A DNA stretch of 32,382 nt from Gammaproteobacteria bacterium (GTDB lineage: Bacteria; Pseudomonadota; Gammaproteobacteria; SZUA-229): positions 1 to 32,382 of the forward strand of contig WFOC01000116.1 in NCBI GenBank assembly GCA_015488295.1, written 5' to 3'. The notes beneath the pieces were generated by a model. It had not been told where the DNA came from. It searched no databases and saw only the letters and a program-made list of their open reading frames with translations. Shown piece after piece: positions 6,233-25,643 of the stretch. How positions within the stretch are numbered: position 1 is the first letter of the stretch; each line of letters begins with the position of its first letter. Made by a program: the position numbers and the translations under genes.

Positions 6233-8050
6233 GTGAGTACAAAAATCCGTAACATTGCGATCATCGCCCATGTCGACCATGGCAAAACAACGCTGGTAGA
6301 CAAATTGCTGGAGCAGTCTGGCACCCTGGATGAGCGCAAAGCACCGGGTGAACGCATCATGGATTCCAATGATCAGGAAAAAGAACGCGGTATTACTATT
6401 ACTTCGAAAAACACAGCGATTGAGTGGAATGATTATCACATCAATATCGTTGACACACCGGGGCACGCCGACTTCGGTGGTGAAGTGGAACGTGTACTCT
6501 CTATGGTTGATTCGGTGCTGCTGCTGGTCGACGCGGTCGACGGCCCGATGCCACAGACCCGTTTTGTTACCCAGAAAGCATTTGCCATGGGTTTCAAACC
6601 GATTGTGGTCATCAACAAGATCGACCGTGAAGGTGCCAACCCGAATCGCGCACTGGATTTAACTTTCGACCTGTTCGACAAGCTGGGTGCGACCGATGAG
6701 CAGCTGGACTTCCCGGTTATCTACGCTTCGGCCATCAACGGTTTTGCCAGCGAAGAATCGGATATTACCAGTGGTGATATGACACCGTTGTTTAATGCCA
6801 TCATCGAGCACGTGCCTGAGCCGGATGTTGATCCTGACGGCCCGTTCCAGCTACAGATTTCTACACTTGATTACAACAGCTATGTTGGCATCATCGGCAT
6901 CGGCCGTATTCGCCGCGGCGTTGTTAAAACCAACATGGCAGTGAAAATCATCAGTGATGATGGCAAGGAGCGCGGCGGTCGTATCGGCCAGGTGCTGGGT
7001 TTTCACGGCCTTGAGCGTGTTGAAGCTGAAGAAGCGCAGGCCGGCGACATCGTTGCGATTACCGGCATCGATCCGCTGTCGATCTCCGACACTATCTGTG
7101 ATCCCAACGTGGTGGAGGCGCTGCCGCCGATGACCGTCGATGAGCCGACTATCAGCATGATGTTCCAGGCGAACTCTTCACCGTTTTCCGGTCAGGAAGG
7201 CAAGTATGTTACCAGCCGTAATATCTGGGACCGTTTGCAACAGGAGTTGAAACACAATGTGGCACTGCGTGTGGAGCAGGTCGAAGGCGATAAATACAAA
7301 GTATCTGGCCGTGGTGAATTACACCTTTCGGTATTGATTGAAACCATGCGCCGGGAAAACTTCGAGCTGGCCGTGGGTCGCCCGGAAGTAATTATTCATG
7401 AAGAAAACGGTGTCAAGCTGGAGCCATATGAAGAGCTGACCGCTGACATCGAAATCGAGCACCAGGGTGCGGTAATGGAAGCGCTGGGTCTGCGTAAGGC
7501 CGAGTTGAAAGACATGGTGCAGGATGGCAAGGGCCGTGTGCGACTCGACTTTATTATTCCTGCACGTGGCCTGATCGGCTTTCGAACAGAATATCTTTCT
7601 ATGACGCGCGGCACCGGCCTGTTGTACAGCGTGTTCGACCATTACGGTCCAATCGTGTCGGACGGCATTGGCCAGCGCCAGAACGGTGTGCTGATTTCCA
7701 ATGCGCGCGGCAAGGCGGTGGCGTATTCGCTGTGTCCGTTGCAGGAACGCGGCAAGTTGCTGGTGGGTAATAATGATGAAGTTTATGAAGGCCAGATCGT
7801 CGGCATTCACTCACGTGATAACGACCTGGTGGTCAACCCGATCAAGCCCAAGCCACTGACCAACGTGCGTGCTTCGGGCACCGATGATGCGCTGACCCTG
7901 TCGCCGCACATCAAATATACGCTGGAGCAGGCGCTGGAATTTATTGATGATGATGAGCTGGTGGAAGTCACGCCGGAAAACATCCGCATCCGTAAAAAGC
8001 TGCTGAAAGAAAGTGAGCGTAAGAGTGCGGGTCGCGGTAAGAAGAAATAG
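6233..8050 (+). CDS. typA: Ribosome-binding GTPase TypA/BipA
   Basis: A 605-residue translational GTPase of the TypA/BipA family, close to the usual length. It binds the 70S ribosome and is needed for ribosome assembly and stress adaptation, especially in the cold. Seen: P-loop [10 protein letters not shown], switch I RGITI, G3 [12 protein letters not shown]4 NKIDR; then EF-G-like domain II, domain III ([18 protein letters not shown]), domain V and the BipA-specific C-terminal domain with the LIGFRTEYL motif and a basic tail ([10 protein letters not shown]). The start is GTG at 6233, with AGAGAA upstream. It appears monocistronic, with a perfect -10 box. A heptad palindrome follows, and no ordinary terminator was found. 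Confidence 0.96.
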
Positions 8051-21381: not shown

Positions 21382-22773
21382 TTAAAAACGAATAATCACC
21401 TTCAGCCCCTGCCCGCTATCAGCCTGGCATAGTTGCAAGCTTCCCCGGTGCATCTGCACCACACGATCAACAATTGACAGACCAATGCCGCAACCGGCGA
21501 CCTGGTGATTCTGCGCCCGATAAAATCGTTCCACGACCCGTTCACGATCTTCTTCTGAAATGCCCGGCCCGTTATCTTCAAAAATCAAAGTGGTTTTTTT
21601 ATCTTGCTGTGAAAGGCTTATTTTTATCTTTCCGTTTTCCGGCGTGTGCGAAATAGCATTGGTCAGCAGGTTGCGAATCAGTAGTCGCAGAGAAGGTTCG
21701 TTGCCATTGATCGACGCGGCATGTGTTTCGTTAAAGCTGATCTCGATGTTCCTGTTGATTGCCAGCGGGGATAACATGGCGCTTTCTTCGATAAGCAGCG
21801 CATTCAGATCTACCCGGGTAAAATCTTTGCTCAGCAGTTCGGGTTCCAGCCGTGCCAGTGTGAGCAGTTGTTCGACCAGGTGTGTGGTTCGGTCAACGCT
21901 GTGAATAACCTGATCAAGCGATTCATTTTGCTGTTTATGATTTTTGGCATTTTTTGCCAGCTCGGTGTGCAGGCGAATGGCTGCCAGCGGTGTGCGTAAC
22001 TCATGGGCTGCGTCTGAGGTGATGCGCTTTTCACGCGCCAGGGTTTCATTTAAGCGAGTTAATAACTGGTTGAGAGCATTTTTAATGGTTGATAATTCTG
22101 CATAATTATTATCAGTTTCTATTCGTTCAAGATTGTCACCGCTGCGCCGGTTGATCTGTGAGGCGAGTTGATGCAGTGGTTTCAGTCCCTGATAGATGGA
22201 GAAAAACATGATCAGGAACAGTGCCGGTATCAGAATAATGAACATGTAAAAAAGATCATTGCTGATTTTTCCGGTGAGGTCGTTGCGCACATCAATGCGC
22301 TCGGCGGTAATGCAGATGTATTGCCCGTTGCTGCTGCGAAGTTTGAATGCGCGCCAGTCGTAGCCGTTGATGAGCGTGTCGTGAAAGCCGGGAGCCTGTT
22401 CGGTGATTGGTTCCAGTGGCGCATTATATGATTTGATCAGCAGGTTGCCTTCATCATCCCAGACCTGAAAAGACAGCTTGGTCTCGTAGGCGTGTGCCGG
22501 ATTGTTGTCAGTGTTTTTACCCTGTTCTTCAAAATCGATATACATGAGTGCAATCCCGTTCTCATCCAGATATTCCTGAATTCTGGAAAAACCGCCGTCA
22601 GCGTTCTGTGATTGTGCCAGGCTGAGAATGATTCGGGCAGAGCGTGCCAGCTGGGCATCGAACAGCTCACGGGTTTCGTGACGTACATCCTGATAGGCGA
22701 ACCATGCGATGCCGCCGACCAGAATGATTGATGCAGTAATGAGGCGTGATAATAATTGAAAACGGATTGACAT
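21382..22773 (-). CDS. QseC/PmrB-type sensor histidine kinase
   Basis: A 463-residue inner-membrane kinase. Transmembrane helices lie at about 8-27 and 174-195, enclosing a periplasmic sensor domain of about 145 residues rich in acidic residues. A HAMP-like segment follows, then the dimerisation domain with phospho-acceptor His257 (SDAAHELRTPLAAI). The ATPase domain has the N box (LLIRNLLTNAISHTP), G1 (EDNGPGI), F (RFYRA) and G2 (GCGIGLSIV). Its closest characterised groups, from the layout, are QseC, PmrB and TctE. It follows its response-regulator gene by 17 bases in one operon. The signal is unknown; acidic periplasmic domains in PmrB-like kinases often bind metals, which is only suggestive here. 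Confidence 0.93.
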   Translation of the reverse strand: MSIRFQLLSRLITASIILVGGIAWFAYQDVRHETRELFDAQLARSARIILSLAQSQNADGGFSRIQEYLDENGIALMYIDFEEQGKNTDNNPAHAYETKLSFQVWDDEGNLLIKSYNAPLEPITEQAPGFHDTLINGYDWRAFKLRSSNGQYICITAERIDVRNDLTGKISNDLFYMFIILIPALFLIMFFSIYQGLKPLHQLASQINRRSGDNLERIETDNNYAELSTIKNALNQLLTRLNETLAREKRITSDAAHELRTPLAAIRLHTELAKNAKNHKQQNESLDQVIHSVDRTTHLVEQLLTLARLEPELLSKDFTRVDLNALLIEESAMLSPLAINRNIEISFNETHAASINGNEPSLRLLIRNLLTNAISHTPENGKIKISLSQQDKKTTLIFEDNGPGISEEDRERVVERFYRAQNHQVAGCGIGLSIVDRVVQMHRGSLQLCQADSGQGLKVIIRF

Positions 22774-22790: not shown

Positions 22791-23450
22791 TCAGGCTTTA
22801 GCGATGATGTAACCGATGCCGCGCACGGTTTTGATCAGCTCGCTGCAGAATTTTTTGCGCAGGTGATGGATGTGTACCTCGATGGTGTTGCTTTCGATTT
22901 CGTCGCCCCAGCTGTAGAGCTTCTGCTCCAGATGGTGTCTTGATAAAACGCGGCCCTGATTGGTGATTAACTCTAGCAGCAGTGTGAATTCGCGCCGTGA
23001 TAGAGTTATGGGCTGCTGCCGGTATTCCACAGTATGGGCGGTGGTGTTGATAACAATGTCTTTGTATTGCAGTGTTTCTGATGCACTGCCGCGATTACGG
23101 CGGCTCAAAGCGCGCAGGCGAGCGCATAGCTCGGCAAACTCAAAAGGTTTTACCAGGTAGTCATCTGCGCCGGCATCAAGACCTTTGACGCGGTCAGCAA
23201 TATCGTCCTGTGCGGTGAGAATCAATACCGGGCTGTGGTCGTTTGCTTCGCGCATCTTTTTCAGCACATCAAGGCCGCTCATCCGGGGCAGGCCGATGTC
23301 CAGAATGATGCAGTCATATTGTGTGCCGGTGATGGCTGAGAGCGCAGTTTCGCCATTTTTCACCCAGTCGACAGCATTATCCTCGCGGCGCAAACCTGCG
23401 CAGACACCATCACCAAGTAGCGTATCGTCTTCGACCAGTAATATTCTCAC
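22791..23450 (-). CDS. OmpR-family response regulator (QseB/PmrA type)
   Basis: A 219-residue regulator with a receiver domain (residues 1-115: Glu7/Asp8/Asp9, phospho-acceptor Asp51 in ILDIGLP, Thr79, Lys101 in YLVKPFEF) and a winged-helix DNA-binding domain (about 125-219: LSRREFTLLLELITNQGRVLSRHHLEQ, SNTIEVHIHHLRKKF). It should be phosphorylated by the kinase encoded just downstream. The start is GTG at 23450, with GGA upstream. The gap ahead of it contains two exact PmrA/QseB-type direct-repeat boxes, so it probably controls itself and the divergent thioredoxin-lipoprotein-barrel operon. Confidence 0.94.
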   Translation of the reverse strand: MRILLVEDDTLLGDGVCAGLRREDNAVDWVKNGETALSAITGTQYDCIILDIGLPRMSGLDVLKKMREANDHSPVLILTAQDDIADRVKGLDAGADDYLVKPFEFAELCARLRALSRRNRGSASETLQYKDIVINTTAHTVEYRQQPITLSRREFTLLLELITNQGRVLSRHHLEQKLYSWGDEIESNTIEVHIHHLRKKFCSELIKTVRGIGYIIAKA

Positions 23451-23493
23451 AATGTAATCCGTCGCTTTGTTTGTAGTGTTTTAGGCTTTCTTT

Positions 23494-23510
23494 CTTAAGG
23501 TTTTCTTAAG
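23494..23510. promoter_or_regulatory. PmrA/QseB-like box 1 (response-regulator side)
   Basis: CTTAAG-GTTTT-CTTAAG: two six-base repeats with a five-base spacer, matching the YTTAAK-N5-YTTAAK pattern bound by PmrA-type regulators. It lies 44 bases before the GTG of the response-regulator gene on the minus strand, where autoregulation would be expected. CTTAAG is self-complementary, so orientation cannot be fixed. Confidence 0.7.
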
Positions 23511-23541
23511 GCTGTGGCTGATGCTTTTAAATTTAACCAGT

Positions 23542-23558
23542 CTTAAGGGTTTTTTAAG
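23542..23558. promoter_or_regulatory. PmrA/QseB-like box 2 (TlpA operon side)
   Basis: CTTAAG-GGTTT-TTTAAG, again YTTAAK-N5-YTTAAK, 55 bases before the ATG of the TlpA-like gene. Its centre is about 48 bases from the centre of box 1, so the pair would sit at the two divergent promoters. A -10 for the plus strand is not clear, as is common for activator-dependent promoters. Confidence 0.7.
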
Positions 23559-23612
23559 AAAGACAGATTACTCTTGTTGGCAGTAATTGAAAATTTATAT
23601 AACCGTTATTTT

Positions 23613-24107
23613 ATGAAAAAAATTATTGCCTTTATTCTACTGACGGCTTCCTTGCTGAGTTTGAATGTGTATGCCGAAGTGTCCCAGTCAGTAGCGCAGG
23701 CACCTGATATAAAACTGCCGACGGTCGATGGCAGTGTGCAGCTTTCTGACTTTAAGGGCAAAGTGGTCTATCTGGATTTCTGGGCATCGTGGTGTGTGCC
23801 CTGTAAAAAATCGTTTCCCTGGATGAATATCATGCAAAAACGTTATGCCGATCAGGGCTTTGTTATTGTGGCGGTTAATCTTGATAAAGAACGGGCGCTT
23901 GCTGATAAATTTCTTGAACAGATGGTGGTGAATTTTATAGTCGCTTTTGATGCCAGTGGCAGCAGTGCAGAAGAATACAAGTTGAGAGGTATGCCCAGCA
24001 GCTATTTGATTGGTCGTGATGGTAAGTTGCATGCGTCGCACATTGGCTTTCGTGAAAAAGATAAAGATAAATTAGAGCAGGCGATTAAAAGTCTGCTGCT
24101 CAGGTAG
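23613..24107 (+). CDS. Periplasmic TlpA-like thioredoxin
   Basis: A 164-residue exported thioredoxin-fold protein. The ORF track begins at a TTG (23574); the ATG at 23613 opens a clean signal peptide (MKKIIAFILLTASLLSL, cleavage after VYA, residue 21). Seen: the active site FWASWCVPCKK (Cys61, Cys64), the TlpA-type lead-in APDIKLPTVDGSVQLSDFKGK, and the cis-proline loop GMPSSYLIG. Such proteins reduce disulfides in the periplasm, for example during cytochrome or copper-site assembly. It is the first gene of a three-gene operon with a Cys-tailed lipoprotein and an outer-membrane barrel. The lipoprotein Cys-Gly-Cys tail is an obvious candidate substrate (inference). Confidence 0.9.
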   Translation: MKKIIAFILLTASLLSLNVYAEVSQSVAQAPDIKLPTVDGSVQLSDFKGKVVYLDFWASWCVPCKKSFPWMNIMQKRYADQGFVIVAVNLDKERALADKFLEQMVVNFIVAFDASGSSAEEYKLRGMPSSYLIGRDGKLHASHIGFREKDKDKLEQAIKSLLLR

Positions 24108-24129
24108 TCAAACAGCAGGTGTTTTTTGT

Positions 24130-24342
24130 ATGAAGTTAAGTCTTTTATTTATTGTTATGGCGCTGCTTGCAGGTTGCAGTTCTATGGGTGTGGAGCCGTG
24201 GCAACGTGATTTGCTGGCAAAAGATTCGATGCAGCCGGTACCGAATTATTTTGAAAACTTTTATGACGAGCATATCTATTTTAGTAAAGAAGCCTCCAGT
24301 GGTGGTCAGGGTGTTGGTGGAGGTGGCTGCGGATGCAACTGA
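24130..24342 (+). CDS. DUF4266 small lipoprotein with GGGGCGCN tail
   Basis: A 70-residue lipoprotein. The signal peptide ends in the lipobox LLAGC (Cys16); Ser follows, predicting outer-membrane sorting. The mature part is only 55 residues: WQRDLLAKDSM, an acidic aromatic segment (YFENFYDEHIYFSKE), and then a Gly-rich tail ending GGQGVGGGGCGCN, with Cys67 and Cys69 at the very C-terminus. This tail is the hallmark of the DUF4266 family as I remember it. It lies 22 bases after the TlpA gene and overlaps the DUF3570 gene by ten bases. Function unknown; the tail could bind a metal, be oxidised or reduced by TlpA, or be modified. Confidence 0.88.
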   Translation: MKLSLLFIVMALLAGCSSMGVEPWQRDLLAKDSMQPVPNYFENFYDEHIYFSKEASSGGQGVGGGGCGCN

Positions 24343-25643
24343 TAAAGATCAAGGGCAAGCTTGCAATGGCGACCTGCACCCTGTTGCAGGTGAGTGCTTC
24401 TGTTAGTCAGGCCGGTGCCAGCCAGTCTGGTGACTGGGATATCGATTCCTCATTTTTATATTATTCAGAAAGTGATGGTCGGGTTACCGCGTTTGAACCG
24501 GCAGTAAGGGCCGGGGTTGATCTGGGTGATGATGAGTACATTAATTTTCAGGTAGTGGTTGATGCACTGACCGGTGCCACCCCCAACGGTGCGCATAAAT
24601 CAAAACAGGTGCAGACATTCACCAACCCGTCTGGCAAGGGTGAGTATACGGTGCAGCCTGGTGAGTTGCCATTGAGCACAACTTTTCGTGATACCCGCGT
24701 GGCAGTAACGGCAGAATGGGATAAACCCATTGATCGTTTGTCCAGTGTGCTGTTGGGTGCCAGTGTCTCGGCGGAGGTTGATTATACTTCGCTGGGTGTC
24801 AGCTCGACGTATCAACGTGACTTCAATAACAAAAATACCACGCTTGCTGCGGGCCTTGCATTAACCTTCGACACTATAATGCCTATCGGTGAAGTGCCGG
24901 AAGGTTTAAATCCGATGCGGGTTGGTGGTGTTGATCAGCAGCGTCTGGGAGCGAGTGATACCAGAGAAACGATTGATCTGGTAATTGGTTTTACCCAGAT
25001 TGTTAGTCGTACCACCCTGTTTCAGCTGAATTATACTTTCGGCACATCTTCGGGGTATCATAATGATTACAATAATGTATTAACCGTGGTGAATCCTGAT
25101 GGTACGCTGAGCACAGCGCCCTGGGTTGCATCAGGCACGGGTAATCGACCTTATCTATTTGAGAAACGCCCTGATTCACGCAGCAGAAATATTCTGTTTT
25201 TCAGAGGTGTGCATCACCTGACAGAAGACGTGATTAATTTCTCTTACCGCTATTTTACCGATGACTGGGGTATAAATTCACATACGCTGGATTTCAGATA
25301 CCGTTACCAGCTGAATTCGCGCCAGTACCTGCAGCCGCATATTCGTTACTACACACAGACCGGGGCAGATTTTTACCGGCATGATCTGGTGCAGGGCAGT
25401 GATGTTGATGCCAGTGGCGTGGCGATAGTGCAATATGCCAGCAGTGATTATCGCGTTGGTGCCTTTGATAGCACAACGCTGGGATTGTCTTATGGCATTG
25501 CTTTAACAAATAACAGCGAGCTCACCATACGTGGTGAGTTGATGCAGCAGAAGATTGATAATTCTGAAGTGCCAAGAGCCGGTGAGGAAACCCCTGATCT
25601 GACAGCGGTGATTTTCCAGATGGGTTACCGTTTTATCTGGTAG
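24333..25643 (+). CDS. DUF3570 outer-membrane beta-barrel protein
   Basis: A 436-residue exported protein with a signal peptide (cleavage near SVSQA) and alternating hydrophobic/polar strands through to a C-terminal aromatic end (MGYRFIW), the signature of an outer-membrane barrel recognised by BAM. Segments such as DEYINFQVVVDALTGATPNG, DTRVAVTAEWDKP and SYRYFTDDWGINSHTLDFRY match the DUF3570 family. It always seems to travel with DUF4266 (from memory). The ATG at 24333 lies within the last codons of the lipoprotein gene. It is the last gene of the operon, with a terminator 30 bases later. It may be a pore or a surface partner for the lipoprotein; no activity is known. Confidence 0.88.
   Translation: MQLIKIKGKLAMATCTLLQVSASVSQAGASQSGDWDIDSSFLYYSESDGRVTAFEPAVRAGVDLGDDEYINFQVVVDALTGATPNGAHKSKQVQTFTNPSGKGEYTVQPGELPLSTTFRDTRVAVTAEWDKPIDRLSSVLLGASVSAEVDYTSLGVSSTYQRDFNNKNTTLAAGLALTFDTIMPIGEVPEGLNPMRVGGVDQQRLGASDTRETIDLVIGFTQIVSRTTLFQLNYTFGTSSGYHNDYNNVLTVVNPDGTLSTAPWVASGTGNRPYLFEKRPDSRSRNILFFRGVHHLTEDVINFSYRYFTDDWGINSHTLDFRYRYQLNSRQYLQPHIRYYTQTGADFYRHDLVQGSDVDASGVAIVQYASSDYRVGAFDSTTLGLSYGIALTNNSELTIRGELMQQKIDNSEVPRAGEETPDLTAVIFQMGYRFIW

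Follow-up and report, generated by a model that had tools for sequence, protein, structure and literature searches.

The small lipoprotein gene at 24130..24342 (+) ends in codons for two closely spaced cysteines, which raises the question of whether this tail is the working part of the protein and, if so, what it does. The window analyzed here is the whole 32,382-nucleotide stretch of gammaproteobacterial DNA in which the gene lies. The 70-residue product, MKLSLLFIVMALLAGCSSMGVEPWQRDLLAKDSMQPVPNYFENFYDEHIYFSKEASSGGQGVGGGGCGCN, belongs to the DUF4266 family: positions 1-50 of the 50-position PF14086 profile align to residues 21-70 (E 2e-20), with a score of 73.8 bits against a curated cut-off of 27 bits. 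Because this match runs to residue 70, the tail is part of the family model. The tail itself, GGGGCGCN, occupies residues 63-70 (24316..24339, +) and closes in CGC-N ahead of the stop codon at 24340-24342. A lipobox, L-A-G-C, is found at residues 13-16 (24166..24177, +), and its Cys is present in 70 of 72 homologues; the mature chain holds this Cys and the tail pair, and no further Cys. Sorting to the outer membrane is expected since the +2 residue is Ser, and Asp occurs at +2 in just one of 135 scored homologues. The open reading frame, the lipobox and the profile match thus bear out the first-pass annotation of a predicted 70-residue lipoprotein with a Gly/Cys tail.

To avoid selecting for the tail, we used DUF3570, the protein encoded downstream, and not DUF4266 as the bait in a search of 399 genomes of the phylum. 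DUF3570 was present in 29 of them, and every DUF3570 locus fetched from this search had a DUF4266 open reading frame ending in GCGC plus one residue. These loci, together with DUF4266 matches in relatives and in larger stretches, gave 72 distinct sequences; addition of 80 named loci and deduplication brought the set to 142 distinct homologues, mostly gammaproteobacterial. The sample is nearly all Pseudomonadota, with one Bacteroides genome that entered through a control search, and a search of a plasmid collection returned three Vibrio records only. Among the 72 distinct sequences, G66, C67, G68 and C69 are the sole invariant columns, so that the alignment of C-termini proposed as a check on the first-pass annotation was strongly positive. 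Asn70 is kept in 67 of the 72, and L29, A30, M34, H48 (67/72) and E54 are also strongly conserved. In the larger set CGC is found in all 142 homologues and is part of a GCGC-x-COOH terminus in 141; the remaining one ends CGCEQ. At the nucleotide level, TGC and TGT are used at the two tail Cys positions in ratios of 34/37 and 41/30, and the tail Gly positions use all four codons. Since GCGC is invariant while its synonymous codons vary freely, selection acts on the protein. High conservation of the C-terminal CXC of DUF4266, and its possible redox cycling, have already been published (Meheust et al. 2021, PMC8238504); what is new here is the strictness of that conservation, its independence of the anchor, the topology of the neighboring barrel and a PmrA/QseB-like operator.

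The arrangement of the genes could in principle account for a fixed tail. The ATG of DUF3570 (24333) sits within the GGA-TGC codons of the DUF4266 tail and GGAGGT lies 8 nt ahead of it, so that conservation might be a by-product of a start codon and ribosome-binding site embedded in the upstream gene. However, 30 loci have no overlap between the tail and DUF3570, and all of them retain GCGC plus one residue (29 GCGCN and 1 GCGCY); the nearly equal use of TGC and TGT at both cysteines and the use of all four Gly codons likewise argue against this account. The non-overlapping loci and the free codon variation rule out the overlap as the full cause of tail conservation, and we give such an explanation almost no weight, although the overlap may influence local codon choice within the tail. 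At 24319-24335 of the window, the GGA-GGT codons of the tail precede the ATG of DUF3570 by 8 nt and are probably used as its ribosome-binding site as well.

Conservation of the tail is also separable from the lipid anchor. Vibrio-type DUF4266 proteins (L107, L110 and L224 at 7424-7909) carry an ordinary signal peptide without a lipobox, are longer by about 90 N-terminal residues, and end GGGGCGCN; in L107 and L110, for which full sequences are available, there is no Cys outside the CGC tail. A lipid anchor at one end with a reactive tail at the other, as first suggested, is therefore not a general property of the family. There is good support for the companion suggestion that the tail does the work of the protein: no region of the family is better conserved than the tail, which persists where the anchor is lost.

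When DUF4266 was modeled alone with AlphaFold, it was mostly disordered (mean pLDDT 62, about 41 in the tail), giving no confident fold model, and the best hit of a PDB sequence search was a beta-glucosidase at E 0.87, which is not meaningful. A protein that is disordered in the model yet strongly conserved in sequence suggests a partner-binding peptide, and the simplest partner is DUF3570. This gene adjoins DUF4266 in 136 of 138 loci, a near-obligate pairing. In the two non-adjacent cases, DUF3570 lies elsewhere on the same contig (L096, genome G457) or is separated by one gene (L121). In one case, L206 (5751-9275), a DUF3570 locus whose flanks are complete has no DUF4266; by eye, its DUF3570 gene, which carries the flavin motif described below, lies directly downstream of a soxB-like gene. 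Another locus, L106 (L015:1390-4125), has a 912-aa open reading frame that carries DUF3570 and is double the normal size, next to a DUF4266 with the terminus GCGCY.

The DUF3570 protein of the window (24333..25643, +; 436 aa; PF12094, E 2e-117) is predicted to be an outer-membrane beta-barrel. Its AlphaFold model has 16 strands and a mean pLDDT of 90.7, and Foldseek matched the model to outer-membrane barrels including FadL, AlgE and BcsC with modest TM-scores; a PDB sequence search found no relative. The loops at one end of the model are 4, 38, 2, 26, 40, 4, 35 and 14 residues long, and the turns at the opposite end are of 2-4 residues. Outer-membrane barrels usually show such a pattern, with the long loops outside and both the N- and C-termini in the periplasm. 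With strand heights taken from DSSP output of the model, 35 of the 38 highly conserved DUF3570 residues fall in the predicted extracellular half (hypergeometric P 3e-4), as do 20 of 23 when only strand residues are counted (P 2e-4); there is no Cys and no His among the invariant residues. At the predicted extracellular end of strand 3 is TGAT (residues 80-83; 24570..24581, +), which fits the canonical ApbE flavinylation motif [ST]GA[ST] and lies within DALTGATPNG (residues 77-86); the second site, PSGKG, is degenerate. A DUF3570 protein was shown to be flavinylated by ApbE at such motifs (Meheust et al., PMC8238504). The main text of the 2021 paper contains no mention of a barrel or of a lipoprotein (PMC8238504). 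A 2024 follow-up alludes to outer-membrane flavinylation sites, DUF3570 not being named, and the barrel may therefore already be known to that group.

Upstream of the lipoprotein gene, 23613..24107 (+) encodes a periplasmic thioredoxin/TlpA-like protein, ResA-like, with a Sec signal peptide and a WCVPC active site (Redoxin/AhpC-TSA, E 5e-22). A thioredoxin gene adjoins DUF4266 in 109 of 133 loci, nearly all with a CxPC active site. Across 142 DUF4266 neighborhoods, the recurring families were DUF3570, thioredoxin, ApbE, a two-component system, DsbD and envelope proteins. Within the window there is no ApbE beside the operon, which thus represents a split form shared by 32 of 108 loci; two ApbE genes lie elsewhere in the genome, one with a lipobox. 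The gene for this lipoprotein ApbE (L002 1390-2469, contig C90) has glutathione synthetase-like and TonB-like neighbors by eye. Likewise there is no DsbD in the cluster, and DsbD-family genes occur solely on other contigs of the genome. A second DUF4266/DUF3570 lineage (L215-L223) has a conserved cluster of its own, comprising a protein that resembles hydrazine synthase alpha and has CxxCH motifs, together with SH3, OMP, thioredoxin and TPR proteins; in several of its members ApbE is 6-18 kb off, and the DUF3570 often has S[SN]AS, which is not the flavinylation motif.

The operon is preceded by a divergent two-component system, a QseB/PmrA-like response regulator (22791..23450, -; Response_reg and Trans_reg_C) and, by profile matches, a QseC/PmrB-like sensor kinase (21382..22773, -). 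Of the NCBIfam models, QseB (244 bits) and PmrA (242 bits) score best for the regulator, although neither score reaches the cut-off. Two putative operators of the PmrA/QseB type, identified by pattern match, lie in the region 23451-23612 between the regulator and the thioredoxin-DUF4266-DUF3570 operon: CTTAAG-N5-CTTAAG at 23494..23510 (+) and CTTAAG-N5-TTTAAG at 23542..23558 (+). The pattern occurs three times in the window against 0.08 expected, and in 17 of the 21 loci with a divergent regulator, where about 0.014 matches per region are expected. The PmrA box is known as CTTAAG and xTTAAT with five base pairs between them (PMC3973317).

These observations provide a model for the tail. We consider it probable, though well short of certain, that the CGC tip of DUF4266 is a mobile thiol/disulfide arm working between the thioredoxin and an FMN on the DUF3570 barrel. 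DUF4266 would be an intrinsically flexible peptide, usually anchored in the outer membrane, whose C-terminal Cys-Gly-Cys would alternate between dithiol and disulfide. The tip would trade electrons with the TlpA-like thioredoxin of the periplasm, which a protein of the DsbD/CcdA type would keep reduced, and would pass them to or from the ApbE-attached FMN on the neighboring barrel. The Gly-rich stretch would let the tip swing, much as the GCUG arm at the C-terminus of thioredoxin reductase does. We infer the redox activity of the Cys pair, its partners, the direction of electron flow and the final acceptor; the direct results behind the model are the strict conservation, the pairing with DUF3570, the adjacency of thioredoxin, the barrel model, the flavin motif and the lack of any other Cys.

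Several lines of evidence favor the arm. Invariance of GCGC under free synonymous change and the presence of CGC in 142 of 142 homologues point, at the level of sequence, to a role for the tip, and the frequent adjacency of DUF3570 (136/138) and thioredoxin (109/133) is consistent with the proposed partners. DsbD, thioredoxin, DUF4266 and ApbE are known to co-cluster (PMC8238504), and the genome examined here could supply the parts missing from the operon in trans, having two ApbE and DsbD-family proteins. The predicted lack of fold in a conserved protein is what would be expected of a partner-binding peptide, and the Vibrio-type members, in which the lipobox is lost and CGC is kept as the only Cys, also appear to favor it. 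There is a precedent in thioredoxin reductase, where a flexible 16-residue C-terminal extension ending -Gly-Cys-Sec-Gly operates next to a flavin (PMC10452626). Against the arm, CGC persists in 24 loci without an adjacent thioredoxin, in the 32 of 108 without an adjacent ApbE, and in the lineage where S[SN]AS replaces [ST]GA[ST] in DUF3570; the window operon itself has no adjacent ApbE. In such cases either the partners act in trans or flavin plays no part in what the tail does. The idea that tail conservation requires the flavin motif was considered and rejected, given that CGC is retained in the S[SN]AS lineage. Moreover, the FMN motif is modeled at the barrel's extracellular end, which an arm confined to the periplasm could touch only by passing through the lumen; it is by analogy that we infer such threading. 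A bolder version, in which DUF4266 together with DUF3570 would conduct electrons across the outer membrane without haem, with the tail threaded in the 16-strand barrel and CGC carrying thioredoxin electrons to a covalent FMN at the extracellular end so as to reduce something outside the cell, is put forward tentatively and is on balance doubtful.

The first-pass annotation had offered a redox or a metal site for the tail. The redox half fits the thioredoxin neighbor and the flavinylated barrel partner; the other half, in which the CGC tip would hold a metal such as Cu(I) or Fe or deliver it at the barrel, we judge unlikely. A flexible terminus with two cysteines is capable of binding soft metals, H48 is conserved in 67 of 72 sequences, and the divergent regulator resembles PmrA, whose family has known metal-sensing members. 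An iron transporter is also sometimes found in the published clusters (PMC8238504). However, Vibrio-type members without H48 still keep CGC, no metal transporter, chaperone or metal-binding family is prominent among the recurring neighbors of the 142 loci, the invariant residues of DUF3570 include neither Cys nor His, and the adjacency of thioredoxin favors thiol chemistry.

Less likely again is a purely structural role, in which a disulfide would act as a clasp holding DUF4266 in the barrel or in a dimer with no transfer of electrons. The near-obligate pairing with DUF3570 and the disorder predicted for DUF4266 alone would suit a clasp, but DUF3570 has no conserved Cys with which to pair, a CXC pair is more naturally self-closing, and the thioredoxin and flavin context argues against it. 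A resemblance to the Gly/Cys cores of modified peptides had also been proposed, and a post-translationally modified core of the RiPP-like or MNIO type now seems very improbable. The C-terminus is indeed rich in Gly and Cys and the genome has one MNIO gene, but that gene has its own partner genes next to it on a different contig, and no MNIO gene lies near DUF4266 operons save one, 9 kb off on the opposite strand. The search for peptide-modifying enzymes around DUF4266 found none that recurs in the 142 loci; no modifying enzyme was found encoded with the precursor, as would define an MNIO or RiPP system, and there is no leader/core organization. By eye, the genome's MNIO gene (L134 4764-7054) lies beside its usual DUF2063-like partner and a DoxX-like protein, unrelated to the DUF4266 operon.

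DUF3570/DUF4266 clusters are widespread, with hundreds published in addition to the 29 of 399 genomes sampled here. If CGC does carry electrons to a flavin on the outer face of the outer membrane, they would represent a thiol-and-flavin route for electrons across the outer membrane, beside the known cytochrome conduits. The closest known system is the DsbD/ApbE/DUF3570/thioredoxin/DUF4266 cluster of Meheust et al. 2021 (PMC8238504), with which the window shares DUF4266, DUF3570 and thioredoxin-like genes, adjacent to one another within 23613-25643, and the flavinylation motif. The window operon differs in having neither ApbE nor DsbD adjacent, a thioredoxin that is TlpA/ResA-like and not PF13899, and a divergent QseB/PmrA-like two-component system with putative operators; 316 clusters without DsbD were also reported in the same study (PMC8238504). 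MNIO-modified peptides of the bufferin type are likewise small exported proteins, with Cys-based modified cores, whereas the DUF4266 operon has no MNIO and its organization does not match. RcsF (PMC4942254) is a small lipoprotein paired with outer-membrane barrels, and its chain crosses the outer membrane in the barrel lumen; it is, however, a sensor of stress whose C-terminal domain is periplasmic, and threading of DUF4266 is a hypothesis. The -GCUG-COOH end of thioredoxin reductase is similarly a flexible redox pair near the C-terminus that serves a flavin and thioredoxin. In contrast, DUF4266 has no homology to it, carries CGC and not Cys-Sec, is a separate envelope polypeptide, and would work with a covalent FMN on a barrel, so that the likeness is one of analogy only.
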